Shown here one piece after another: positions 1 through 18,006 of a stretch of 64,000 nt of DNA. Origin of the DNA: Panagrolaimus kolymaensis (taxonomy: Eukaryota > Nematoda > Chromadorea > Rhabditida > Panagrolaimidae); NCBI GenBank assembly GCA_028622995.1, contig JAJQJQ010000003.1, positions 8,060,001 through 8,124,000 on the forward strand, written 5' to 3'. A program made the translations under genes and the position numbers. The notes beneath the pieces were generated by a model. The model searched no databases, was not told the origin of the DNA, and saw only the letters and a list, made by a program, of their open reading frames with translations. Each line of letters opens with the position of its first letter. Within the stretch, counting starts at the first letter, position 1.

Positions 1-3000
1 GCTGCCACTCTTGCCTGAAACTCCATCTCCATTTAGTATTGAATTAAAATTGGAAAATAATTTTAACGATAGCGCACTTGTGGACCAAAATATTATTGGA
101 GAAGAAGAAGCAAAAAATGATAATTTAGTTGTAAAAACTCTCAATGAAAATGTTAATGATAACATAAATTACAGTCTTGCAGTAAATCTTCCAGTCACAG
201 TTGCAGGTAAGTCAGGTCAACTAAAAAGGACTATTCTTAATTTTGAGATTCGTAGAAGAATGTTTGGATGAATTCGATAAAACCCTTGCTCGATCGTGCC
301 AACAAATACCCGATTGGAAAGCTCGATATTATTTTGATAGCACTTTGAGAACATGCAAAATGTATTGGCATGGAGGATGTTGGAGTGAATCTCGAAATGA
401 TTTCGATGATTTACAAATGTGCAAATGGAAATGTGAAGGTGCACATCATGAACCCATTTCACGTAAGTCGGAAATTCAATTTTCATATTTGACTTTTGTT
501 TTTAAGATAGCTGCTTGGATAAATTTGACCACAAATACCTCGGAGATTGTAGAAATGGAGTTTATGATATCCGCTATTTTTTCAATCATGAATCAAAAAA
601 GTGTTCTTCATTTTATTTTGGAGGTTGCCAATCTCATTCTAAAAATTTCTTTGTCGATCGAGGTCAATGTCAAGAATATTGTGAAACAGTTCCCAAAGAT
701 TTATCTGGTAAATTTAACATAACTCAAACTCATTGAAAACAAATTTTTCTTTTTTTAGGTTTTTGTCTTCAACCATTTGACCCTACTTATCGTAATTCTT
801 GCACAGCTGATGGCTCATATACCCAATATTATTATTACGATTCAATTGCAGATAGTTGCAAAATGTTTTGGTATGGAAATTGTAAATCTAAATCACATAA
901 TATTTTTGCTACTTTGGAAAGTTGTCAATGGCTCTGTGAAAGGAAGCAAGAAACTAAAGTGCCACGTAAGCAAAAAAAATATTAAAAGTAAAAAATTTGT
1001 AAGTTTAGAACATTGTTTGGATAAATTTGATTTAAAATATCGCGATGCTTGTAAAGGTGGAAAATGGGTGGAAAAGTATTATTTTGATCATACATCAGGG
1101 AGATGTCGAGCTTTTTGGTATGACGGGTGTATATCAGAATCACAAAATATTTTTAAAAATCGTGAATCGTGCGTTCATTTATGTGAAGCACCAAGTGAGT
1201 TTAAAAGTTCAGAATCCATTTATTTGTTTCAAAAATTAAATTTAAGCCCTCGCAACAGCAACTCAGCTGCCTTCAAATGAAACCACTGCCATAGTTTCTG
1301 AAAATGAAAAGCTACAAGAAATTGATACTTCTCGATGCTTGGAATCTTTAGCTGTTGGAGATTGTAAAGAAACGTAAGCTTTTATGATATTTTTTTCAAA
1401 CTATTTCTAAGTTGTTTACAGTTTGCCAGCATATTATTATAACGTTGAAAAACGAATTTGCGAACCTTTTTCTTATTCCGGTTGCCGAGGAAATGGAAAT
1501 AGATTTATGACTTTATCCCAATGTGATCAAACTTGTGGCAATTTTAAGCATTTTGATGGTAAATCATTTTTTTCAAAAAGTAATAAAATATTATTGCGCA
1601 TTTTTTTATTGCAGCTACCGAAGCAAACTGTTTCCTTCCGCTGAGTATTGGATTTGGTCGTAAACGAAAAACATGCATTCGAAATGCAGGATACTTTTTT
1701 TATTATAATTTAAAAGAACAAAAATGTGGCCGGTTTTGGTATCTTGGATGTGGAGGAAATGCAAATCGATTTCATCACGCAACTGAATGTGAACAAGTAT
1801 GTCGAAGAAGTCATGAAATTCCACCTAAAACTGAGCCCCTAAAATCTGTAAATGCATGCTTCCAAGGAATTTCAAAAGGCAAATGTGAAAATAATGAAAT
1901 TCCTAATAATCTTACGCGATGGGCTTACCTCGCGGCATCAGGGAAATGTGAAGAATTTGAATTTGATGGATGCGGAGGAAATGAAAATCGATTTGCAACG
2001 CAACATGAGTGTAATAAATTATGCCACAAATTGATAGCACCCAATTCAAGTAATTTTTTTCTTTAAAATAAGCAATAACAAAAAATACCAATTTTTTTTA
2101 GTGCAATGTGCCCATTATCCTGATTGGGGCCCATGTAATCGTTTGAGATACATGTGGTATTATAATCTCACAAGCGGCAGTTGTGAACAATTTTTATATG
2201 GCGGTTGTGGAGGAAATGAAAATCGCTTTTCAACTTTTGAAGTTTGTCAAGTTACTTGTGAAGTTCCTGGCGAAGGTAAAAAAGAAAACAATCATTTTTA
2301 CAAAATGGGGAAACCCAAGAAACTTTTTAGATCCATGCATGGATAAACTTGATCGAGGTAAATGGTGTGAAAGTATGTCGAATCGATATTATTATCATTC
2401 CAAATCCAAAACTTGCAAAGGATTCCATTATACTGGATGCGGGCAAAGTCGAAATAATTTTTTGCAATTAGATGAATGCGAAAATGTGTATGTTTTTAGT
2501 CACTAAAAAAAGCATTAAAAATATGTATATTTATTGTTTCAGTTGCGTTCATAGAAAAAAATCTTTTGATTATTCTATTCCAATAATTTCGAATGAAAGT
2601 TTTTCCAATGCAACAGACTACCTAATATCTAATGCCACAACCAAAGGAGTTAAATGTAGGTACTACAAAAGCTTATTTCCATAAAAGTAAAATTTCAGAT
2701 TCGGGCAAAAAACCGCTAGAAAATAAACCAATGATTCGACATCAAATTTTAAATGAAAGTGATAAACATTATCTCAAAACTGAAGGTCAATGGGTTGAAT
2801 ATGGACATTGCCTTGGTTTTCGTTACAATATTTCAGGTCCAAATACAAAATTAAACAGTTTTATATGTTTAATGGAAAAAGGTGGAACCTGCCAAATTCA
2901 AACCCTCACCGATACTGGCGGCGAAGAACGTTGTCGAGTTATTCGTCCATGGTTGCGAGGTTCACATTATTATTCATGGTTTTTTACTATCGAACGAAGA

Positions 3001-3147
3001 AATTATCCATCGAAAATATCTTTAACAGATGCAAATGGTAAAAAACAAAAAAGAACTCCACATCATAAAATAAAACCTCAAAAAGCTACCGATACTGTTG
3101 CATCGTTAATTATTCTTCCGCTAAATGATTGTTATAATATATGTTGA
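1..3147 (+). CDS. Multi-Kunitz secreted protein (3' part; mlt-11/papilin-like)
   Basis: The 5' end lies outside the window. Coding segments read as <1-206, 248-462, 507-707, 759-965, 1009-1194, 1247-1373, 1422-1558, 1615-2049, 2102-2275, 2331-2485, 2543-2655 and 2699-3147 (TGA). Nine Kunitz/BPTI domains can be traced by the six-cysteine spacing with YYF/YYY and FxYxGCxxxxNxF cores (for example [12 protein letters not shown] and [13 protein letters not shown]). Most domains occupy one exon, so the array probably grew by exon duplication. A cysteine-containing C-terminal region of about 150 residues after the last Kunitz domain matches no domain I recognise. Nematode multi-Kunitz proteins are secreted serine-protease inhibitors, some of them (MLT-11 type) acting in cuticle moulting. 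The family call is firm; the assignment to MLT-11 is a guess. Domains 1-4 lack the GG of a canonical loop and may not inhibit proteases. Confidence 0.85.
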
Positions 3148-3218
3148 CACAAAAAATGCTTTATTTTGCTTTCGCTTTTTATAATATAAATAAACTTCTT
3201 TGATTCACACAAAAAAAA

Positions 3219-3354
3219 TTAATAAATAAATAAAAAATTAATAAATAAATAAAAAATTAATAAATAAATAAAAAATTAATAAATAAATAAAAAATTAATA
3301 AATAAATAAAAAATTAATAAATAAATAAAAAATTAATAAATAAATAAAAAATTA
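3219..3354. repeat. 19-bp tandem repeat, about 7 copies
   Basis: A 19-bp A/T-only unit (six A, then TTAATAAATAAAT) is repeated about seven times with almost no variation, just after the Kunitz gene. A single copy of the same motif lies at about 7455-7475 in the duplicated unit, so the array expanded after the local duplication. Confidence 0.9.
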
Positions 3355-3390
3355 ATCTTTTCTAACAACACCATTTGGAAAATTTCTTTT
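3352..3390 (-). pseudogene. Relic of the last exon of a CLCC1 paralogue
   Basis: On the minus strand this stretch reads as a short tail ending in N-G-V-V-R-K-D-stop. The intact CLCC1 homologue at 7475-8818 ends in S-D-V-V-K-K-D-stop, and both are followed by the same AT-rich sequence. No further CLCC1 exons lie upstream before gene X-A, so only the terminal exon survives here. Confidence 0.5.
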
Positions 3391-3437
3391 AAAAAAAGTA
3401 AAGTAAAAGAAAAATTAAATGTTTTATTTATTTTATT

Positions 3438-4255
3438 TTATTCATCCTCCGTTTCACAAATAACAGAAAAATCTTCATCATTGGACATATTGGCTTCGGA
3501 ATCAGTCGTTTGAGATATTTGGCGCTTCAAAATTTTTGTTTTAGTAGTTTCTGGTAATTTATAAGAATTTTTATCAGCGGGGTTTATTGATTTTTCAAAA
3601 AAGTCTTTTATTGAAGATGACTTCCGCGATATAAAAAATTCTTCAGTTGGTGTACGATCTTGACTTATTTCATTGCCTTCTTCGTCTTCAAGTGGACCAA
3701 ATAAATTAATATATGAGTCGTCGTTAAATGAAATATTGCTAAAAAAAATTATTTTTTCTTCATCATCTGCTTTTTCACCATTGGGTAATGATATTGGTTG
3801 TGGAGAAGGAGGGGGAGGGAGAACTTCGTCTGCGATATGCAAAGACGAATGTGGTATGTCCTTCGAAAATCCACTGCGACGCTTGGATTTCCACCAAATA
3901 AATTCAATGCTAAAATAATTAGTTATTTTTCCTTAGAAGAAAATATGTTTTTAAAATGTGCATACCTAATAATTGTAATAACCAAAATAAAAATCGAGAC
4001 AAAAGTTAAATTCATTTCTTCACATTCATTGTTATTATTATTATCAAACTCTTCTGTATCTTCTGTAAAAGTTTCATCTTCAATAATACCAACATCTTCT
4101 TTTTGATTTTCTTTAACTGTTATTGGGACCATCTGATACTGATCCGATGGATTTAACCATGAAGATTTATCAATTTGATATTCCTTTGGAATTTGACAAT
4201 AAGAAATACCAAATAATCCAAATAAAAATAAAAAATTTAAGAAATAAAGATTCAT
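3438..4255 (-). CDS. Short CLCC1-N-terminus-like type I membrane protein (gene X, copy A)
   Basis: There are two coding segments, 4255-3966 and 3909-3438, giving 253 residues. A signal peptide ends near YCQ. It is followed by the lumenal motif PKEYQIDKSSWLNPSD, an acidic Asn-rich stretch, one membrane segment (about residues 80-96, LTFVSIFILVITII), a basic patch (WWKSKRRS) and a long acidic Ser/Pro tail ending SVICETEDE. The N-terminal motif is shared with the CLCC1 homologue at 7475-8818 (PKEYQIDKSEWTNPSD). The CLCC1 core (cysteine pair, multiple membrane spans) is missing. I infer a gene derived from a CLCC1 first exon joined to an unrelated tail; its function is unknown. A second, broken copy lies at 8962-9648. 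Confidence 0.7.
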
Positions 4256-4927
4256 TTATAAATTTTTTGCAACAAAAACAAATTATGAAATTTTTTGTTA
4301 TTCTAAAGCCTCTTTCTACTATTAATTAAAGGAAAGGACGCTGGTCATTTGCTATTTTTCTTTCAAACTTCCCGGATGATTATAATGCCACACAAATAAC
4401 AGGCGTTTGTTGTGTAGTATAATCAATTATGTAATTAGCCGGGAAGTTTGAAAAAAGGCGCAAATGACCTGCGTCCTTTATGATAGAACGTGATTCAACC
4501 TTTCAATAAAAAAATCTTAGATTTCTTTATCTTGGTCATTGTTATTGTTAAAAAATACATACAACCGATTTTTTTCATATTAAAAGTAATCGTGCATTTT
4601 TCACACACTTTTTTCTTGTTTATATTCTTTAGGTATAGGGATTTGCCTCTGCCTCAAATTTGTGGATTTTTTCTTACAATAGTCAAAAATTACTTTGTTG
4701 CAATTTTTTTTAAACCCACGCTATTTTTTTAATATTTTACGCAACCAACCCAAAATTTTATAAATATTTTTTTTTTCATTATCCATACAAACACTGTTTC
4801 ATTTATTTTATTATAAAGACGAGCAATTTTTAATTAAAAATTATTACGTTAATTTTTGCTGGAATACAAACGAGTTGTTAGGAACTTTTTTGTTTTGAAA
4901 AATTATTAATATTGCATTTAATCAGTG
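4256..4927. other. Divergent intergenic region between gene X-A and activator A
   Basis: This is the shared upstream region of two divergently oriented genes. Its right half (about 4520-4760) is recognisably similar to 9750-10200 in unit B, apart from the hairpin element at 4333-4479. No further coding sequence was seen. Confidence 0.6.
4333..4479. mobile_element. Foldback/MITE-like element, 147 bp
   Basis: Terminal inverted arms of about 42 bp (4333-4375 and 4439-4479) begin AAAGGACGC and end GCGTCCTTT, pairing with few mismatches. The inner part is also partly self-complementary. The element is absent from the equivalent place in unit B. There is no coding capacity, and I see no clear target-site duplication. 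Confidence 0.7.
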
Positions 4928-5846
4928 ATGCCAGAATTATTTGATGAGAGTGGTGATACTGAAGACGAAGGCAGTGAGGTAAATAACAAACGCCTATATT
5001 TATTTTTGCTATTTAATGATAGGTAAATTTAGAATGAATTTGAGGTTATTCAAGATATACAGATACCAAAACCAAGGCCAAAATCAAAGTATGATTTTAC
5101 CAAAAGATTCGGATTTTATATTTGGGAACTTTTAATATTATCAGCAGCAATGTTTTTGCTTGGTGTGATGTATGAAAGATCAAATTTTGAACATTTTTTG
5201 GAAAAATCAACTTTTAAAGAAAAAGTATTTCAAAAATTTGGTAATGATTCCGCCCCATCTATTCTTTATCTTCATCATCATTTAACAATCCTTGATAATC
5301 CAAATGCACCAGCAAAATTTTTTGTTGCTGCTGAAAACCCAAATGATATAAATCATTTTAAAAAACAAATATCTGAAGTTTTTGATGAATTCAATATTCA
5401 TGTTTCCGTTATTCAAGTTGTTCCTCAAATGTCTTCAAGCATGCTATTTAACGATTATTTGGATCTCACTGCATCCACAGAAAAATCTTTGATATTCATC
5501 AACGATGTCAATAAACTTAAAGATGTAGCGCCCTTAACCATTCAAAGAATAGTCGATCCTGATACTGCTTCATCGAAAGAAGCTGCGATAATTTTAACAG
5601 CTTCTGGCCTAAAATTTCCTGAAATAAAAATGAGCAAAAAAGAATGCAAAATTTTTGTTCGAAAGTATTACTTTTTTTGTTTTTAAAAAAACAAATATAA
5701 TAATTTTAAAAATTTTCAGATATCTTTTGAATGTTTGGTCCTCGGCTGAGCTTTCCGAAGAACTAACAGAACCAATCATTTCTCGAATAACTGCAAACGT
5801 TCTTTGTCTGTCTTCAGCAAATCAACGAAGAAATATTGAGTTTTGA
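4928..5846 (+). CDS. LAP1/LULL1-type torsin activator, copy A
   Basis: There are three coding segments, 4928-4978, 5033-5664 and 5720-5846, giving 269 residues. A short acidic, then basic, cytosolic N-terminus is followed by one membrane segment (ELLILSAAMFLLGVM, about residue 50) and a lumenal domain of about 200 residues. The domain follows the TOR1AIP layout: a first strand-loop of the KFFVAAENP type, a central AAIILTASG strand, and a C-terminal SRITANVLCL. The last aligns with the SRI segment that carries the activating arginine finger of LAP1/LULL1. These proteins have an AAA+-like fold without nucleotide motifs and switch on torsin ATPase in the ER/nuclear-envelope lumen. The torsin starts 183 bp downstream. 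The short cytosolic tail favours the LULL1 type. Confidence 0.8.
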
Positions 5847-6019
5847 CTTTTTTTTAAGTTACATAAAATTATTATATTTTAATTTAATAAATTTTTTTTA
5901 CATATTTATTGATAGAAAAACTATTGGATATGCTTTTATGCATTTTCATATTTATTTAATACTTTGTTTTATATCCATATTTTTAATTTAAAAATCATTA
6001 AACAAGAATTTATCTTTCT

Positions 6020-6026
6020 TTTTTTA
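6020..6026 (+). promoter_or_regulatory. Probable SL trans-splice acceptor of torsin A
   Basis: A polypyrimidine tract ending TTTTTTTAG lies three bases before the torsin ATG and 174 bp after the activator stop codon. A 3' splice site with no upstream exon in this position is typical of a downstream nematode operon gene. Confidence 0.5.
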
Positions 6027-6029
6027 GAA

Positions 6030-7279
6030 ATGAAAATATTTCCATTATTAATTTGCCTCCTTTTTGTGGTTTCTTATGTTATAGCTGAACCATTTACAAT
6101 CGCTGCTGTGGGAGTTGCTGGTTTTGGAATAACGAGTTTGTCAGGATGGATCATGTATCGATATTTTCGACAATGTTCTAGGGATATTAAAGATTTAAAT
6201 AATTTTCGTAAGTTTAAAAAAGGATTTATCTAAACAATGTAAATAAATTTACAGAGACAAACTTTAATGAAGAATTGAATAAAAACTTTTTTGGTCAACA
6301 TATAGCCTATTCTATGGTTGGTCATGCTATTCAAGAGCATTTAGTATCAGAGTAAATTAAAGAAATACTTGAAAAAATTTATTTTTAGTTTTAGGACTCC
6401 AAATAAAGCTTTGGCTTTGGCATTTCTTGGTGGAACAGGGACTGGAAAAACTTATCTCACTTCTTTACTTGCTAAAACTCTTTTTGTTAGCAGAGAAAAA
6501 AGTCCTTATTATCATAAATATGTTGGAGTTGAAAGACTTCTGGATGATCAACATGAAGCGAGAGAATATGCAGTAAGTACATATTTTCTTTATACTCAAA
6601 ATCTGCAAATATGCTTGGCAGCAAAAATAAAAGCCTTTTCCTCAAAATAATTAACATTTTTTAACACATTGCATGTTTTCAGAGAAGTTTAGTTTCATGG
6701 ATCAAAGGAAATTTAACTGAATGTGCCTATAGTGTATTTGTATTTGATGAAATGGATAAATTTCCTCGAGTTGTAATCGATTCTTTGCAGGAATTTGTTG
6801 ATTTTGATGCAAAAACATATGGACGTTACAATTCCCGCAAAGCTATTTTTATATTTTTAAGTAATTCTGCAACCAAAATTATTGATGGCCATCTTTACAA
6901 TCATATCGGGGAAAACAAAAAAGCTCGAACTGATCTTCGTTACGAACATATAAAATTAATTTTGCGGGAAGCAGCTTTTAATGATGGCTCAAAATTTAGT
7001 GGTTTGCGTCAATCTGAAATTGTACGAAAGTCATTAATTAATTATTATATTCCATTTTTGCCTTTACAACGATCCCATGTTCTTCAATGCATTGAGGCTT
7101 ATATCAAAAAATATAATGAAAGTAAAATGGATAAAAAAGCAGAAATAAAATTAAGTAATAAAGAAAAGAATAGAATAACCGATGAAATGGAATATTCACC
7201 TGAAGAAAATCCAATGTTTAGTAAACAAGGATGTAAAACTGTTGAAGAAGTTGTTACAACAACAACTTTTAAATATTAA
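6030..7279 (+). CDS. Torsin-family AAA+ ATPase, copy A
   Basis: There are four coding segments, 6030-6207, 6255-6351, 6395-6572 and 6683-7279, giving 349 residues, near the usual torsin length. A signal peptide ends near VIAEPF. A hydrophobic stretch (IAAVGVAGFGITSLSGW) corresponds to the torsin membrane-associating segment. Next come the FFGQH motif, Walker A GGTGTGKT, Walker B VFVFDEMDK, sensor-1 FIFLSNS and the torsin-specific C-terminal GCK motif. Torsins act in the ER/nuclear-envelope lumen, need a LAP1/LULL1 partner for ATP hydrolysis, and affect nuclear pore assembly and lipid metabolism. One oddity is Thr after the Walker A lysine, where animal torsins normally have Asn. Probably co-transcribed with the activator just upstream. 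Confidence 0.92.
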
Positions 7280-7295
7280 AAATTAAAAAAGAATT

Positions 7296-7474
7296 TCCAA
7301 TTATAAAATAAAACCTCAACAAGCTTTTGATACTGTTGCGTCATTATTTTTCTTCAGTTAAATAATTATTATTATATTTGTTGAGACGAGAAAAAAAAAT
7401 ATTCTTTACTTTGCTTCTGTTTTTTATAATTAAACTACTTTTATTTAAAAAATAATAATAAAATAAATAAAAAA
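7296..7474 (+). pseudogene. Relic of the Kunitz-gene 3' end (unit B boundary)
   Basis: This stretch is a diverged copy of 3060-3230: the last codons of the Kunitz gene ([11 protein letters not shown] versus a frame-broken KPQQAFDTVAS) and its 3' flank. It starts 17 bp after the torsin A stop codon and marks the left edge of the second duplicated unit. Confidence 0.7.
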
Positions 7475-8818
7475 TTAATCTTTTTTAACAACATCGCTGC
7501 CATGGCTTTCAATAGCTCTGCCAGCTTCTAAAAAAAATTACAAAAATTTAGTATTAAAATTTTGTTAAAATCAAACAACTCACGAAAATCAATAGAAAGA
7601 AGAGGCGTCTGAATTTTTATCTTCCAACTTTTTAAAATATAGAAAATTGCCAAAATCATAATTATTCCAACAAAAATAAGTCTTGCAATTTGAATATGAA
7701 TTGGTGCTGGAGTTAAATAAACTTCAATTGCTTCTTGAAGAGATTCAAAGAATCCAATTAAAGGACTACCCGCTGTTTTTCCAATAATTTCAAGCGAACT
7801 TGAAAGAATATTGGATGTCATTGGAGTCTCTGTGAGTGCATCCTTATAAAATTGTTCGCATGGATCTTGAATTCGTTGAAAATATGATCCAATATATGTT
7901 CCAAGTCCATACATCCAACTTTTTGGTGCACAAGGGTCTTTAATTTGAACTTGTCTTGCCATCTGTTTAGATAATGCAGTCTAAAATTAATCCAAACTTT
8001 TTAACATAAATTTGAGTGGGATAAAAAAATTTTTACCAAATAATTATCATTCATTTTTTCACTAACTTCATGAGCAAGTAAAATAAAAAAAATTATGATA
8101 AATGTTTTTGCTTTAAATATTTTAAACAAAATATACAAAGCTGAAGAAGTTATGATTTCAAAAGCAAATGGCATAGCTCGTAAGAATCCAATGATGTAAG
8201 GTTCTTTTGAAACACTTGCCTAAAAATTTGCACTTTTAAATAATTATTTTCTCTTGAATTGTTAAAATTTAAATTCCTACATCTTTAACGAAATCTTTCA
8301 TAAATGGCTCTAATTGCTCAATTAAAGTAAGCGACGGTTGTTCGGAATCAAGAAATTCTTTAAGTTTTTGTACCCCTTCTTTAGGAAGATAAATATCAGC
8401 GGCTTTATAAATTTCTTCGGGACTATCTTCTTTATTATTAAGATTTTTCAAAATTTGTGTGAATAATGCTTTCGCAAATTTTTGATTATGTTTTGAACAG
8501 CTTTGACTCAATTCTCTTAATTTAGTGTTTGACAAAATGAGTTCCTTAATAAAAGCTATTTTTATTAAATGAAAAATCATTTTTTCTTTTTAATAATGAA
8601 AGCAAAAGCCTTACATGTTGACATTCACTTGCATGAAAATTGCAATCACAAGTACCATCCAAATTTTCGCTAAATTGTGAAATAGTATTCTGATTATCCG
8701 ATGGATTTGTCCATTCTGATTTATCAATTTGATATTCTTTTGGCAGTTCTTTTTCGCAATTTGTAAGGGGTATTAAAGAATAAATAATTAAGAAACAATT
8801 AAGATAAGAGAGAAACAT
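7475..8818 (-). CDS. CLCC1: CLCC1 homologue (MCLC family, ER membrane protein)
   Basis: There are five coding segments, 8818-8615, 8544-8281, 8219-8037, 7980-7584 and 7527-7475, giving 366 residues. A signal peptide is followed by the lumenal motif SEWTNPSD, matching the WIDPTD region of CLCC1, and by a helical segment ending EGVQKLKEFLDSEQP. Then come membrane spans in exon 3 and the diagnostic lumenal segment with paired cysteines, CAPKSWMYGLG ... QDPCEQFYKDAL. An amphipathic/hydrophobic C-terminal span (IFVGIIMILAIFYIL) follows. The cytosolic tail is far shorter than in vertebrates. CLCC1 is described as an ER anion channel or scramblase-like factor and has been compared with yeast Brl1/Brr6 in nuclear-envelope membrane remodelling. 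An acceptor at 8823 lies just before the ATG, suggesting trans-splicing. Confidence 0.85.
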
Positions 8819-8961
8819 TTTTCTGAAACACAAAGTTAAAAACAATTTTTTAAATCGAGAAATGAAATTTCTAATTAAAATAAATAAAAAATATTCAAAG
8901 TATAAAACTTTTTAAGTTAAAAAACCATAAATATTAAAATGCTTTATTTATTTATTTATTT

Positions 8962-9648
8962 TTATTCATCCTCAGTTTCACTAATAATAGAAAAATCTTC
9001 TTCATTGGACATATTAGTTTCTGATGGCTCCGGCGATGTTGGAAGCGCTTCATCTTCAGTAAATAAATGATGGCCTTGAATACTTTCTTCTTCGGTTTCA
9101 ATTGGGCCAAAAAGATTAATATAGAATTCATCATTAAATGAAATATTGTTTAACGAAATTATTTCTTCGGTTTCATCGGCTGCTTCTACATTAGATGGTA
9201 TTGGTTGTTGAGAAGGAGAAGGAATAACTTCTTCAAAAATATGCAAAGATGAAGGTGATACATTTTTAGAAAATCTACTCCTGCGATTCAACCAAATAAA
9301 TCCAAAACTGTAAACATTAGTTTTTTTTAATCAATAAGTAACAATACTTTTAACTTACCAATTAATTATAATAGCACAAGTGAAAATCAAAATAAAAGTT
9401 AAATTCATTTCTTCACATTCATTGTTATTATTATTATCAAACTCTTCTGTATCTTCTGTAAAAGTTTCATCTTCAATAATACCAACATCTTCTTTTTGAT
9501 TTTCTTTAACTGTTATTGGGACCATTTGATACTAACCAGATGGATTTAGCCATGATGATTAATCAATTTGATATTCCTTTGAAATTTTGCAATAACAAAC
9601 ATAAAATAAATGTAATAAAAACAAAAATATTAAAAAATAAAATTTCAT
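8962..9648 (-). pseudogene. Gene X, copy B: broken by two stop codons
   Basis: This is the paralogue of 3438-4255 with the same two-exon layout (9648-9360 and 9308-8962). The first exon has a TAA at 9559-9561 (AAA in copy A) and a TAG at 9532-9534 (CAG in copy A), both inside the lumenal motif. Splice sites and the second exon stay open, ending SIISETEDE. About 130 bp of exon 1 (around 9400-9530) is almost identical to copy A, while the second exon is strongly diverged. A shorter product from a downstream start cannot be excluded. Confidence 0.75.
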
Positions 9649-10381
9649 TTATTAATTATTTCATGCAAAAAAAATAATATTAGCCGAGTATTTATTTCCT
9701 TGAATAATTTTTTTTTATCGTTAATGCAAACAGCAAAAACCGATTCTTCCTTTTTTTATCAAATTTAATCGTGTAATTTTTTTCTTCATTGGCTTGAAAA
9801 AATATATTTTATTTATGTATCGCGTAAGTTGTTTATCATCAAACTAAAAACTCTCATTTTGGAAGCAGCAACAATTTTTTTTTATCATGTAAGCGAAACG
9901 TTATCTTACAACATAAAAGAAAGACAAAAAACGGAGTTTTTGTGCATAAAAAAGGAAAAGAGTGATTGAGTAAATAAATATTAAGATCAAAGGATACATC
10001 GCTTTCTTTTCACCTTTTTTTTAGCGAACAATTTGTTTAAAACAAATTGTTTTTGTTTTTTATGTTTAAGGATTTGCCAAAGCGCTAAGATTTACATTAT
10101 TTTTGTAGTAAAAATTTATTTTGTTCTCGATTTCTCTATAATATCATGTCCACCCCCAGTTTTTTTAAACTTAATACAACCAAGCCAAAATATTATCAGC
10201 AATTTACTTGAATTGCATATTTTCATCATTTTTCACGCAAAAGCTTTTTCATTTATTTTATTATCAAAAAGTGCGTATTTTTCAGTTTTAAAATTATAAG
10301 GTAATCATATCGTGGAATAAAAAGAGGTTGTGGGAAACTTTTTTTGTATTTGAAAATTTAATAATTTAGATTAAACACGTG
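9649..10381. other. Divergent intergenic region upstream of activator B
   Basis: AT-rich sequence homologous in parts to 4520-4927. I see no gene in it. Confidence 0.6.
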
Positions 10382-11684
10382 ATGAGTGATTCAGAAGGAA
10401 AATATGAGCAGAGTGATTCAAAAGGAGAAGATAACCATATTGATACAAAAAGAAAGTGGGATTTTACCAAACGATTCGGATTTTACATTTGGCAAATTAG
10501 TTTATTCGCTATATTCATGTTTACGCTTGGTGTGATGTTTGAACGATATGTCATTACAAACGTTATTAATTCTTCAGAAAAATCAATTATTAAAGATAAA
10601 ATATTTAAAAAATTTGGTAATGATTCTGCCCCATCGGTTCTTTATCTTCATCATCATTTAACAATTGTTGAAAATCCAAATGCTCCAGCAAAATTTTTTG
10701 TTGCTGCTGAAAACCCAAATGATATAAATCATTTTAAAAAACAAATATCTGAAGTTTTTGATGAATTCAATATTCATGTTTCCGTTATTCAAGTTGTTCC
10801 TCAAATGTCTTCAAGCATGCTATTTAACGATTATTTGGATCTCACTGCATCCACTGAAAAACATTTGATATTCATCAATGATGTCAATAAACTTAAAGAT
10901 GTAGCGCCATTAACCATTCAAAGAATAGTCGATCCTGATACTGCACCAACGAAAAAAGCAGCTATAATTTTAACAGCTTCTGGCCTAAAATTTCCTGAAA
11001 AAAATATGAACAAAAAAGAATGCGAAATTTTTGTTCGAAAGTAATACTTTTTTGTGATTTTCTGCAGTTTACAGTGCCCGTCTTTATTTTTTTATTTTTT
11101 CATTTTTGAGTGAATCGAACTTTTGTGAAACTGCCAGATCGGACGGGCACGTGACTAACCGCTGAACCACAGATACTACATTTTCAATGCATCAAAAGTT
11201 TGTTATATGAAATTGCAAACTTTCAAAGAAGGAGTCACAAAGGATTCAAGAACAAATAATGGATCTAAATTAATAAAGGATCCAAGAACCAATAATGGAT
11301 CTAAATTAATAATGGATCCAAGAACCAATGAAGGATAAATAATGGATCCAAGATTCAAATAAAGGATCTAAATTTATAATGGATCCAAAAATTTTTAGTC
11401 TTAAATTTAATAGTCCCTAAATTTAAATAATGAAAATTTCATAACAGTGAAAGTGAAAAAAGATTGTAAAAAAATAAATAAATGCGGGCACTTTAAACTG
11501 CAGAAGACCCCTTTTTTGTTTGAAAAATGAAGGATTTTAATAATCAAAAACTTTCAGATATCTTTTGAATGTTTGGTCATCGGCTGAGCTTTCCGAAGAA
11601 CAAACTGAACCAATCATTTCACGGATAACTGCGAACGTTCTTTGTTTGCCTTCAGCAAATCAACAACGAAACACTGAGTTTTAA
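10382..11684 (+). CDS. LAP1/LULL1-type torsin activator, copy B
   Basis: There are two coding segments, 10382-11040 and 11558-11684, giving 261 residues. The domain layout is that of copy A: cytosolic tail, one membrane segment (ISLFAIFMFTLGVMF) and a lumenal activator domain ending in an SRITANVLCL arginine-finger segment. The tail differs from copy A and lacks the first short intron. The lumenal core from KFFVAAENP to LDLTASTEK is nearly identical between copies. The only intron carries a TIR-bounded insertion (11060-11506) absent from copy A, where the same intron is 55 bp. The torsin B gene follows 207 bp downstream. Confidence 0.8.
11060..11506. mobile_element. TIR-bounded insertion with internal minisatellite and tRNA-like boxes
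   Basis: Ends are inverted repeats of about 21 bp (TCTGCAGTTTACAGTGCCCG and its near-complement at 11485-11506). Between 11220 and 11400 a GGATCCAAGAACCAATAAT-type unit is repeated irregularly. On the minus strand, 11151-11176 reads TGGTTCAGCGGTTAGTCAC, like a Pol III A box, and 11109-11131 contains GTTCGATTC, like a B box. The element lies inside an intron of activator B. Confidence 0.65.
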
Positions 11685-11891
11685 CTTTCTTTTTTCATAT
11701 AAAACCGTGATGATTTAATTTAATAAACAATTTTTAAAAATATATGTTGTAAAAATATAATTAATGGATATGCTTTTATGCAATTCAATATTTACTTGTT
11801 ATCACTTTGTCTTTAAAGCAATGCTTTTTTGTTTTAGAATTCTGACGTTTCAGACAAGTCAAGGTTAACTTTAAAATTGCAAATTCCAGTA

Positions 11892-13153
11892 ATGAAAATA
11901 TTTCCATTAATAATTATCCTCCATTTTATGGTTTCTTATGTTATAGCAGAACCTTTTACAATTGCTGCTGTGGGAGTTGGTTTTGGAATAACGAGTTTGT
12001 CAGGATGGATGTATTGGTATTTTCGACAATGTTCTGGCGAAATGAAAGATTTGAGTAATTTTCGTGAGTTTACTAATTAAGAATTTAAACTCAAAATAAT
12101 ATTCGTAAATTTAAAGGAACACATTTTAATGAAGAATTAAATAAATATTTTTTTGGTCAACATATCGCATACTCTATGGTTGGTCATGCGATTCAGCAAC
12201 ATTTGGAATCAGAGTAAGTTTCAAAAAGTACAAAAAAAATGCTCGGAATAATTCTATATATTGTTTAAGGAACCCCAGTAAAGCTTTGGCTTTGGCATTT
12301 CTTGGTGGAACAGGGACTGGAAAAACTTATCTCACTACTTTACTTGCTAAAACTCTTTTTGTTAGTGGAGAAAAAAGTCCTTATTATCATAAATATGTTG
12401 GAGTTGAAAGACTTCTGGATGATCAACATGAAGCGAGAGAATATGCAGTAAGTACATATTTTTTTATACTCAAAATCTGCAAATATGCTTGGCAGCAAAA
12501 ATAAAAGCCTTTTCCTCAAAATAATTAACATATGTAACACATTGCATGTTTTTCAGAGAAGTTTAGTTTCATGGATCAAAGGAAATTTAACTGAGTGCGC
12601 CTATAGTGTATTTGTATTTGATGAAATGGATAAATTCCCTCGAGTTGTAATCGATTCTTTGCAGGAATTTATTGATTTTGATGCTAAAACTTATGGACGA
12701 CACAATTCCCGCAAAGCTATATTTATATTTTTAAGCAATTCTGCAACTAAAATTATTGATGGCCATCTTTACAATCATATCGTGGAAAACCAAAAAGCTC
12801 GAACTGATCTTCGTTACGAACATATAAAATTAATTTTGCGGGAAGCAGCTTTTAATGATGGCTCAAAATTTAGTGGTTTGCGTCAATCTGAAATTGTACG
12901 AAAGTCATTAATTAATTATTATATTCCATTTTTGCCTTTACAACGATCCCATGTTCTTCAATGCATTGAGGCTTATATCAAAAAATATAATGAAAGTAAA
13001 ATGGATAAAAAAGCAGAAATAAAATTAAGTAATAAAGAAAAGAATAGAATAACCGATGAAATGGAATATTCACCTGAAGAAAATCCAATGTTTAGTAAAC
13101 AAGGATGTAAAACTGTTGAAGAAGTTGTTACAACAACAACTTTTAAATATTAA
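11892..13153 (+). CDS. Torsin-family AAA+ ATPase, copy B
   Basis: There are four coding segments, 11892-12063, 12117-12213, 12270-12447 and 12557-13153, giving 347 residues. It has the same motifs as copy A: signal peptide, hydrophobic N-terminal segment, FFGQH, Walker A GGTGTGKT, DEMDK Walker B, sensor-1 FIFLSNS and C-terminal GCK. The last two exons and the intron between them are almost identical to copy A, whereas the first two exons and introns are clearly diverged, which points to gene conversion. A TTCCAG two bases before the ATG could be a trans-splice acceptor. The predicted role is as for copy A, as an ATPase partner of the activator directly upstream. Confidence 0.92.
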
Positions 13154-13733
13154 TAATTTTAAATGCAATAAATTGTTGTAAATAAACCTTTATCCATAGT
13201 TGTTTTAACAAGTGAATATCGCAAAAGACAGACACATTCCAAATCATAAAAGATTTTAACAATATTGCCTTAATTTTAGATTGAATCTTCACCAGTATAT
13301 TGTTACATACTTTCGATCTAATGAAAAACAAACATGCAGTAAAAAAACTTGGCATCAGTAATTATTATTTACTCGCCAAACCGAAACTGTCGCCTCATAA
13401 AAATTGTAAAAAGATTTGTTGGAGAAGAAAAAAAAACGATAGAAACTAATAATAAATACTCTAACATATATTACAAGCATTAGTTCAATAAGGTATCAAA
13501 TAAAGACAGTATAAAGTGAAAATGCAATTGGAGAATCAATCAAACTTTACAGAATAAATTTTGATATTTGAATTTTACCCACCGTAATTTTCTTTCCATG
13601 ACAACGGTGAAAAAGAAGAGGCTTTCAAATTTTCGTGTCGCGCACATTTTCTGTCATTTTTTCTTTTTGAACTTTTCATTCCAAACTTTTTTTTATTCGT
13701 TGTTTCCTGTTTTTGGACGATTTTTGTTTTTTA
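13154..13733. other. Intergenic, no gene seen
   Basis: AT-rich sequence after torsin B. The similarity to unit A stops at the torsin stop codon. No ORF with coding character was seen. Confidence 0.6.
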
Positions 13734-15187
13734 ATGAATCTAGACATCTTTAATCCGAGAAGACTTTTTTATGAATACCGTGGTGGTAAATGCTATTATT
13801 TCTAAAAGCTATGACTATAATAAACCTTTTTTCAGCTCCAGTTCAAAGTTCGAGACCTAAAGAAGCAACAAAGAAGACGAAAAAAGGATTGGTTATTGAA
13901 GCCACTGAAAATTATGGAAGAATCATCTGTGCGCGTTCATTCAAAGATCATGGTGTATTTGTCTTCTTTAATCGTGATACAATAATTAATGGAACTCCAA
14001 TGCATTTGGGTAGTGCAAATCTTTCAACAGCTATTCCAATTGGTACAGAAGTAGAATTCAAGTTAACGTATGATTTTCCATCGAAATGGCGGACGTTTAC
14101 ATCGTATATGGGCTATTATTGTGAATGGTTGACCTTCGGTTAGTATTATAATGTTGTTTTTTTGTTTATTACATATCCACATGTTTGTTCTTTAAGCTTT
14201 GTTGCACCCTTGTTTGTCAACTAAAGCTTATTCTTTACTTGTGTTTGTTCTTTGATTGTATTATATTCAACATTTTCCAGATACTTCAAAGAGTACTAAT
14301 GTTCTTCTTGTTGAATTACTGGTTAAAGAAAACCGTGATGATGGTTTGGTTATTGCATCTGATGGTGCTGCATCAAATGTGGTTATTCATCCTCACATTT
14401 GGCCTTCACCCAATGCTCTTCGCAAACTTTTGGTTGGTAATGAACTTGAACCTAGAATCGTAAGTAGTCTTTGACCCTTTACTTACTTTCTTTTGTAAAT
14501 CTTTCATTTTTCAGAATCATCGCTTTCAAATGCTCACTCAACGAAGTCGTACTTTACTTACTCTTGTTAGACCTGTTCCATCATTTTTGAAGACAAAACT
14601 TAGACGAATGAATTTTATTGCTCTTTCATGTAAACCACTTGGTAAAACTATTGCATGTTATGCTCATCTTGTTGGAGTTGGACCACAAGCTGTTTTATTC
14701 GACTCTCTTGGTTATCGGAGTGATACTGTGGATACGACACCTGTAGAAATTATAATGGATCGAGAAGTATTTATAAGCTCTCTTGGTGATGAGAAAGTAC
14801 GTGATTATATTTTACGAAGCTTTTTTCATTTATATGTGGTTTTAGGAGCAAACAGCTAATCTTAATCAACTAATTGGTCGAATGTTTCAACTTGGTTGTG
14901 TTGCAAATGTTGCGAGTCAGAAGCATCCATTACGGGCATTTTCTGCACATATGTGTTCTTCAGACGTTCTTCCAATTACTCCTACTCGTCGATCTTTCTA
15001 TCATAGATATAATGCTAGGATCAGTTTCCGCTCAACTCAAATGAAACGTACATTTTCTCCTTCTTCATCTTATACCGATGATTCTTCAAAGCGGTATGTC
15101 TTCTTTAACTTACAAATACTTCTAACTCTCATTAATTCATTTTTTAGATGGTGCTTCAACGAACCTTTGGCTCCGATTTTTGAATAA
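13734..15187 (+). CDS. Unknown protein with OB/cold-shock-like N-terminal segment (copy 1)
   Basis: There are six coding segments, 13734-13785, 13836-14138, 14281-14459, 14515-14796, 14846-15093 and 15148-15187, giving 367 residues. The start was chosen because its first exon matches the paralogue at 16358 (PxRLFxEYR). Residues about 30-100 read GLVIEATENYGRII ... GVFVFF ... IPIGTEVEFKLTYD, the strand pattern of a cold-shock/S1-like OB fold, but without the usual RNP1 aromatics. Later parts (VKENRDDGLVIASDG, IALSCKPLGK) may be further beta domains. There is no signal peptide or membrane span, and the C-terminal part is rich in Arg, Ser and Thr. I do not recognise the family; RNA binding is only a guess. 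Confidence 0.75.
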
Positions 15188-16357: not shown

Positions 16358-18006
16358 ATGTTTTATCCAAATAGACTCTTTACTGAATACCGTAGTGGTA
16401 AGTACTTTTTATATGTTTAATAATCGATTTCTTAAAGGGTTAGAAAAACATAAGGTTAACTATTATTGTTACGAACAATCTTTTCCATTATTATCTTCCT
16501 TAAATTTTTTGCTCTTAATTTTTTTAACTATTAAAGTATCATTTTTTCAGGTCCAGTTCAAAATACTAGACCTAAAGAATCTACAAAGAAAACGAAGAAA
16601 GGTTTGGTTATTGAAGTAAATGAAAACTATGGAAGAATCATCTGCGCTCGTTCATTCAAGGATCATGGTGTATTTGTCTTCTTTACTCGAAATACAACTA
16701 TCAATGGAACTCCAATGCATTTGGGTAATGCTAATCTTTCTACAGCTGTTCCCATTGGTACCGAAGTTGAATTCAAGTTAAGTTATGACTTTCCATCAAC
16801 GTGGAGAAATTTCAAAACATATATGGGCTACTATTGTGAATGGTTAACTTTCGGTATGTTTTGCTTACTCTTGCTAATAGAATATTTATCCATAATGCTT
16901 TGTTTCAACCTATCTTGCACTCGAAAGCACCATTACATGTTTTTTGATTAACTAATGACATAATTTTACAGATACTACCAAATCTACTGCTCATGTTTTC
17001 CATGCTGAATTACTGGTTAAAGAAAATCGTAACGATGGTTTGGTTATTGCATCTGATGGTGCTGCATCAAATGTGGTTATTCATCCTCAAATTTGGCCTT
17101 CACCCAATGCTCTTCGCAAACTTTTGGTTGGTAATGAACTTGAAGCTAAAATAGTAAGTAGTCTTTGATCCTTTACTTTCCTTGTTTACCTCTCGTTATT
17201 TCAGAATCATCGCTTTCAAATGCTTACTCAACCTAGTCGTACTTTACTTGCTCTTGTTAGACCTGTTCCATCATTCTTGAAGACAAAACTTCGACGAATG
17301 AATTTCATCGCTCTTTCATGTACGCCTCTTGGAACAACAATCGTCTGTTATGCTCATCTTGTTGGTGTTGGCCCTAAAGAGCTTTTATTCGATTCTGTTG
17401 GTGTTCGTGAAGATACTGGTGATACTCTACCTGTTGAAATTGTTATGGATTGTGACTTGTTTTTAAGTTCACTTGGTTATGAAAACGTAAGCTTCATTAA
17501 CCTGATAAAGCTTGTGACAATAATGTGTTTTTTAGATTTCAAGTTCAAAAGTAAATCTTGCTCCCACTATTGGTCGAGCATTTCAACTTGGTTGTGTTCA
17601 AAATGTTGCAAATCAAAAACATCCATTACGTGCATTTTGTGCTTATTTGTGTCCACCAGGAACTGTTCCGAAGAATCCTAGAATGCCTATGCCACGTGTT
17701 TATTCTCGTAATGTTCGTCATACTTCATCTCAAGTTAAAGCTTTTCCACCATTGGTTGTGAAGAAGCTTTCAAAATTATGTAGCTCATTTACTCGTCGAA
17801 GTTTCTATCATAAATTTACTGTTCGACGTAGCTTTCGCGCGAATCCACGCAAACGCGCCTTTACTCCATGCTCGCCTTATACTGATCTTGCTGCTAAACG
17901 GTATGTTTCATTTCTCTTAACTTTATAACTGTCTAATACTTTGTTGTGCTTTTTTAGAAAGAATCTCAATGAAACTTTCCATGATGTTTCCATCTCTGAT
18001 TACTGA
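16358..18006 (+). CDS. Unknown protein with OB/cold-shock-like N-terminal segment (copy 2)
   Basis: There are six coding segments, 16358-16397, 16551-16853, 16972-17153, 17205-17486, 17536-17900 and 17958-18006, giving 406 residues. Intron positions and phases match copy 1 exactly. The N-terminal GLVIEVNENYGRII ... GVFVFFTR ... IPIGTEV block and the middle MNFIALSCTPLG block are conserved between copies. The fifth exon is about 40 residues longer and rich in Arg, Lys and Pro. A TTTTTTAG acceptor lies five bases before the ATG, suggesting spliced-leader trans-splicing. No family is recognised. Confidence 0.75.

Follow-up and report, generated by a model that had tools for sequence, protein, structure and literature searches.

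A diverged second set of torsin, LULL1/LAP1-type activator and CLCC1 genes clustered in the nematode Panagrolaimus kolymaensis

The main result of the analysis reported here is that a single locus of Panagrolaimus kolymaensis carries a diverged second set of torsin, LULL1/LAP1-type activator and CLCC1 genes, in which paralogues of the three genes are joined while their other copies are scattered. The locus lies in the window, by which we mean the whole 64,000-nucleotide stretch analysed (C2:8060001-8124000), in a genome of 265.8 Mb and 807 contigs; the published account describes the assembly as triploid and 266 Mb in size (PMC10374039). The gene families are known, and what is new is the clustered second set, together with a gene, here called X, that is headed by a CLCC1-type exon; neither appears in the results of our literature searches. 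Nothing on nematode CLCC1, or on a gene cluster of torsin with CLCC1, came up in them, within abstracts that were partial and might omit a passing mention. Also new are the finding that the genome has other, unlinked torsin, LULL1 and CLCC1 genes, and the indication from the homeologous loci that the array predates the subgenomes.

Layout of the locus

The region between 3438 and 13153 is made up of two tandem units (unit A, 3033-7284; unit B, 7271-13158). Each contains a LULL1/LAP1-type activator gene followed, after a gap of 183 or 207 bp, by a torsin gene, and each has a head-to-head gene X; the CLCC1 paralogue sits between the two activator-torsin pairs. From left to right, the features are:

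3438-4255, minus strand: gene X, unit A (exons 3966-4255 and 3438-3909; 253 aa)
4928-5846, plus strand: activator, unit A (exons 4928-4978, 5033-5664 and 5720-5846; 269 aa; R250 aligns with the presumed arginine finger)
6030-7279, plus strand: torsin, unit A (exons 6030-6207, 6255-6351, 6395-6572 and 6683-7279; 349 aa)
7271-7479, plus strand: left edge of unit B, the duplicated 3' end of a Kunitz gene and downstream DNA (76% match to 3033-3242)
7475-8818, minus strand: CLCC1 paralogue (five exons, 8615-8818, 8281-8544, 8037-8219, 7584-7980 and 7475-7527; 366 aa)
8962-9648, minus strand: gene X, unit B (two in-frame stops in exon 1)
10382-11684, plus strand: activator, unit B (exons 10382-11040 and 11558-11684, with a 517-bp intron; 261 aa)
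11892-13153, plus strand: torsin, unit B (exons 11892-12063, 12117-12213, 12270-12447 and 12557-13153; 347 aa)

All spliced models use GT-AG introns. They return both torsins, together with the proteins of 366 and 269 aa, at the positions first given, bearing out the first-pass annotation of this DNA in its description of two tandem activator-torsin pairs with a CLCC1 homologue between them. The CLCC1 gene region (about 7480-8930) has no counterpart in unit A, except for a short stretch in exon 1 of X. In each of the four units available (A and B in the window, plus one each at the homeologous loci on C55 and C8), the activator and torsin genes share a strand and are separated by 180-207 bp, and a T-rich AG acceptor is found immediately 5' of torsin A. 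The start of X lies 670-922 bp from the activator gene, on the opposite strand, and a promoter common to both is possible.

Identity of the torsin, activator and CLCC1 genes

The torsin assignment is direct. Torsin A matches PF06309 (E 1e-25, 90.7 bits) and TOR1A_C (E 4.5e-7, 30.3 bits), the curated Pfam cut-off being 27 bits for each torsin domain, and it aligns to TorsinA 6oif with an E of 2.1e-42. The likeness to human TorsinA (TOR1A) extends to the torsin domain, the Walker A and Walker B (DEMDK) motifs and the C-terminal GCKTV, but the nematode protein reads GTGKT where TorsinA has GTGKN. Torsin dN/dS (ratios only) is 0.08-0.20. The remaining torsin matches of the genome lie on C4, C10 and C22 (39% identical over residues 90-347), with a fragment on C24. 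No canonical torsin is found on the contigs holding canonical LULL1 or CLCC1, and no activator match turned up in the 20 kb surrounding any of the three.

For the activator and CLCC1 genes, the first-pass annotation had looked to profile matches, with MCLC for the 366-aa protein and TOR1AIP for the 269-aa protein, and Pfam returned neither. The 269-aa activator has no Pfam match of any kind, and the 366-aa protein has two chance matches alone (E 0.045 and 0.091). Canonical LULL1 and canonical CLCC1 of the same genome fail equally, however, so the MCLC profile is too narrow for this nematode and was not taken as defining. A profile search with the activator likewise found no LULL1 or LAP1 chain, and no solved structure related by sequence to the window CLCC1 was found. 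The Pfam and PDB sequence searches, having yielded nothing relevant, were discounted as a test of activator and CLCC1 identity because the canonical genes fail Pfam too.

Set directly against the PDB sequences of human LULL1 and LAP1, activators A, B and C8 show a weak match. Of 1000 full shuffles, 25-337 do as well at the standard gap cost and 8-100 at a lower one; at the lower cost torsin A, used as a control, scores 50 against LULL1, next to 49 for activator C8. The connection runs instead through canonical LULL1, which is found on C6, C38 and C1 with 32-34% identity to the window activator (a further, weak match lies on C31). The C1 copy scores 169 against activator A, 75 against human LULL1 and 72 against human LAP1, where the highest scores among 1000 shuffles are 68, 60 and 55. 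An SRI motif is aligned in the four proteins (human LULL1, human LAP1, canonical LULL1 and window activator), and both nematode genes have a phase-2 last intron. The arginines in question are given as R563 in LAP1, whose lumenal domain spans 356-583, and R449 in LULL1 (PMC4358337). Judged from its position, the arginine of SRI would correspond to R449/R563. Linked in this manner through canonical LULL1, the window activator belongs with LULL1/LAP1. It resembles the human proteins (TOR1AIP2/TOR1AIP1) in having one hydrophobic segment, as read by eye, and in its aligned C-terminal arginine, which stands 19 residues before the end of the window protein. In contrast to the human system, the activator gene here immediately precedes torsin in the same orientation, and the pair is the second, diverged one of its genome. 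Activator dN/dS (ratios only) is 0.28-0.59, and an AlphaFold2 model built from activator B's main exon, with a mean pLDDT of 42, is too poor for use. In Panagrolaimus davidi, one protein model fuses an activator C-terminus with torsin, which supports the activator-torsin pair in a second species.

The evidence for CLCC1 comes mainly from alignment against shuffled controls. Smith-Waterman scores of the window protein against four mammalian CLCC1 sequences are 95-131, compared with maxima of 67-74 in 500 local shuffles each and of 55-68 in 500 full shuffles each, and with 32-39 for the reversed sequence. BLASTP against human CLCC1 gives an E of 4e-8, with 72 of 348 columns identical (21%), and hhalign against mammalian CLCC1 a probability of 55% (E 1.2e-4). 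As a lone query, the window protein retrieves none of 4533 database candidates at E <= 10; a search with window and human CLCC1 aligned retrieves 400 proteins, and all 120 listed carry PF05934. With a mammal-only HMM the window protein is not separated from shuffles (best domain 2.3 bits, against 8.7 bits, for the whole sequence, in the best of 2000 shuffles) and is not among the 15 matches listed. The protein is collinear with mammalian CLCC1 (MCLC) over nearly the whole core, sharing the N-terminal W-x-x-P-x-D, a P-A dipeptide ahead of the last hydrophobic segment and both cysteines of the knuckle pair (human C254 and C279, in the numbering of PMC13061601), and its membrane-fusion (MFH) domain is preserved at the core. 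It differs from human CLCC1 in missing the long tail and in having torsin genes as neighbours.

Within the genome, exons of canonical CLCC1 were located on C6, C38 and C68 by searching all of it, with 17 matches from 20 scored candidates, and the canonical gene scores 575 against the window gene, the maximum of 500 shuffles being 112. The two are 46-48% identical over residues 217-348 (C6:7005685 and homeologs), and both have four introns with phases 0,0,0,1, of which, by eye on the alignment, three fall at the identical residue and one within one residue. Canonical CLCC1 from C6 scores 78 against macaque CLCC1 (shuffle maximum 61) and 66 against the platypus protein, a thin margin over the maximum of 65. 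It is 484 aa long and has a tail, whereas the window protein ends shortly past its last hydrophobic segment; by these sequence comparisons, the 366-aa gene can be regarded as a tail-less CLCC1 paralogue. The contigs of canonical CLCC1 are without torsin and have LULL1 at least about 0.5 Mb away, the LULL1-CLCC1 distance being about 0.52 Mb on C6 and about 0.69 Mb on C38. The C1 copy of LULL1 is 0.16 Mb from a contig end, making the third subgenome less informative on distance. The gene assignments of the first-pass annotation were therefore right, by Pfam and 6oif for torsin, by the canonical LULL1 link for the activator and by the shuffles against four mammals for CLCC1.

Gene X and the age of the array

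By eye, X of unit A encodes a signal peptide, a CLCC1-type N-terminus, a short acidic part, one hydrophobic segment and a tail. Its likeness to CLCC1 is confined to the first 45 or so residues. The whole protein scores 107 against window CLCC1 (maximum of 500 shuffles 65); with the first 45 residues removed, the score falls to 35 against both CLCC1 genes, a value that 300 and 322 of 500 shuffles equal or exceed. Compared directly with canonical CLCC1, X scores 54, reached by 6 of 500 shuffles, and hhalign against mammalian CLCC1 gives 0.3%. Membership of X in the CLCC1 family was consequently rejected, homology being absent past the first exon. X has no Pfam match and was not found in the genome beyond these loci, although its first exon matches window CLCC1 and there is a match on C45 with an E of 0.89. 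The CLCC1-exon relic reported in the other unit by the first-pass annotation is indeed a CLCC1-type exon, yet not a relic, since it forms the in-frame first exon of X in unit A. This exon is present in all four units, broken in one, and over a stretch of 16 residues it has 13 matches to window CLCC1 and 8 to canonical CLCC1. Its greater proximity to window CLCC1 and its presence in every unit suggest that a CLCC1-type exon adjoined the pair before the duplication. Copy B of X, given its two in-frame stops, is probably a pseudogene; dN/dS among the three intact copies (0.44-0.61, ratios only) suggests weak constraint.

The loci on C55 and C8 have the same neighbours as the window (Kunitz gene, X, activator, torsin and first downstream gene) around a single unit. 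The CLCC1 paralogue type is absent from both loci and from all other genome matches, so that window CLCC1 is kept in one of three subgenomes. The history of the array was read from a four-way alignment (A, B, C55 and C8) in 150-column blocks. C55 is like unit A (90-100% per block) up to about 6055 and mostly like unit B thereafter, while C8 is mostly A-like on the left, apart from B-like patches in X, and turns mostly B-like at about 5680-5820. In the blocks between X and the activator, A and B agree in as few as 47% of bases, as against at least 93% for A and C55 and 73-84% for A and C8; the torsin 3' ends are near-identical between A and B. The C55 and C8 loci thus look like recombinants with an A-type left and a B-type right side. 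The simplest account would be an ancestral two-unit array from which unequal-recombination deletions took out the intervening DNA in C55 and C8, and the A/B duplication appears older than the split of the three subgenomes. The B-like sites within the activator and the A-like run within the torsin of C55 point to gene conversion, besides deletion, in shaping the units. As the paralogue type occurs nowhere else and its first exon is common to X in the four units, we infer that CLCC1 already lay between the two pairs in the ancestral array.

Possible roles of the cluster

A plausible reading, which the first-pass annotation had put forward, is that of a functional neighbourhood for nuclear-envelope remodelling. 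It gains from an array that looks older than could be seen from the window, and it is tempered by the finding that these are diverged second copies, with CLCC1 in one of three subgenomes. In the more specific form that we consider about evenly balanced between right and wrong, the diverged second set would serve nuclear-envelope/ER-lumen remodelling, with torsin acting on CLCC1-type oligomers in one tissue or stage. The same strand, the short gap and the T-rich AG acceptor suggest that activator and torsin are probably co-transcribed, as in a nematode operon, and the conserved residues that they would form one ATPase, with the arginine finger contributed by the activator. The CLCC1 paralogue adjoins the pair on the other strand and shares its first exon with X, which points away from the neighbouring activator gene in each unit. 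The set may serve a single tissue or stage, such as the germ line, and torsin and CLCC1-type oligomers would cooperate physically. That two subgenomes lack this CLCC1 speaks against its being strictly required at the locus, and the broken copy B of X and the weak direct match to LULL1/LAP1 were also counted against a functional set. A stronger version seems to us rather unlikely: Panagrolaimus would keep a second module dedicated to nuclear-envelope fusion, whose activator-torsin ATPase, encoded by an operon, would remodel or disassemble oligomers of the linked CLCC1, with X, a CLCC1 N-terminus on a different tail, as competitor or adaptor.

Accidental proximity must be taken seriously, even if we lean against it: a duplicated CLCC1 would have landed by an activator-torsin pair, and local duplication and exon copying would have given X its first exon, with no functional link. 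The absence of the CLCC1 copy from two of three subgenomes, the broken X and the fact that the remaining genes of the three families are not near each other are all in its favour. Conversely, the chance that a single gene placed at random in a haploid genome of 89 Mb falls within 10 kb of one locus is about 1e-4 (a hand estimate, uncorrected for the many gene sets open to notice), the association seems older than the subgenomes, and the CLCC1 reading frame, splice sites and core are all kept. It is improbable, in turn, that torsin, LULL1 and CLCC1 were adjacent in an early nematode and that the block was duplicated before the canonical copies dispersed. Canonical LULL1 and CLCC1 do share a contig in two subgenomes (C6 and C38), but canonical torsin lies on different contigs (C4, C10 and C22), and, with few chromosomes in all, finding LULL1 and CLCC1 on the same one is unsurprising. 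Least probable is a fast-evolving conflict cluster, such as a germ-line or hybrid-incompatibility element undergoing duplication, gene conversion and loss. The signs of unequal recombination, the near-identical torsin 3' ends and the varying copy number among subgenomes would suit it; the low torsin dN/dS argues against it, and no toxin- or drive-like gene came to notice in passing.

The possible significance of a functional second set lies in the long-standing question of torsin's targets. A 2026 Nature paper regards CLCC1 as the human homologue of Brl1/Brr6 from yeast, and in its Discussion the authors speculate that CLCC1 oligomers might be torsinA substrates (PMC13061601); the relation to Brl1/Brr6 is taken here from that work, the sequences set alongside ours being mammalian CLCC1. 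The cluster fits this substrate idea without proving it. Were the stronger version true, the linkage would constitute genomic evidence for the proposed relation. A paralogue cluster set apart from the scattered canonical copies offers independent, testable support for a link between torsin and CLCC1, and a small genetic system in which to address the question.

Genes on either side of the array

A multi-Kunitz gene lies to the left of the array on the plus strand (window 1-3147); one of its ORFs matches Pfam Kunitz_BPTI (1.4e-8), and a copy of its 3' end is found at window 7271-7479. To the right, two genes in tandem (window 13827-14956 and 16542-17652) share approximately 79% identity, and the single exon searched from this pair matched no Pfam family.

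Non-coding differences between the units

The interval between gene X and activator A contains an imperfect inverted repeat (window 4333-4479) that has the look of a small transposon. It is also present in both homeologous contigs (C55 and C8); the corresponding interval of unit B shows no match to it. The intron of activator B (window 11041-11557) spans 517 bp, as opposed to 55 bp in activator A, and harbors short repeats around GGATCC.

Torsin sequences

Elsewhere in the genome, a torsin-like fragment (G000:C24:2654013-2654542) comprises two matched stretches, the second interrupted by stops, and is possibly a further, decayed torsin. Within the array, the 3' ends of torsins A and B (window 6969-7269 and 12843-13143) are identical (100%, rounded, in two 150-column alignment blocks) although their flanks differ, a sequence pattern pointing to gene conversion.
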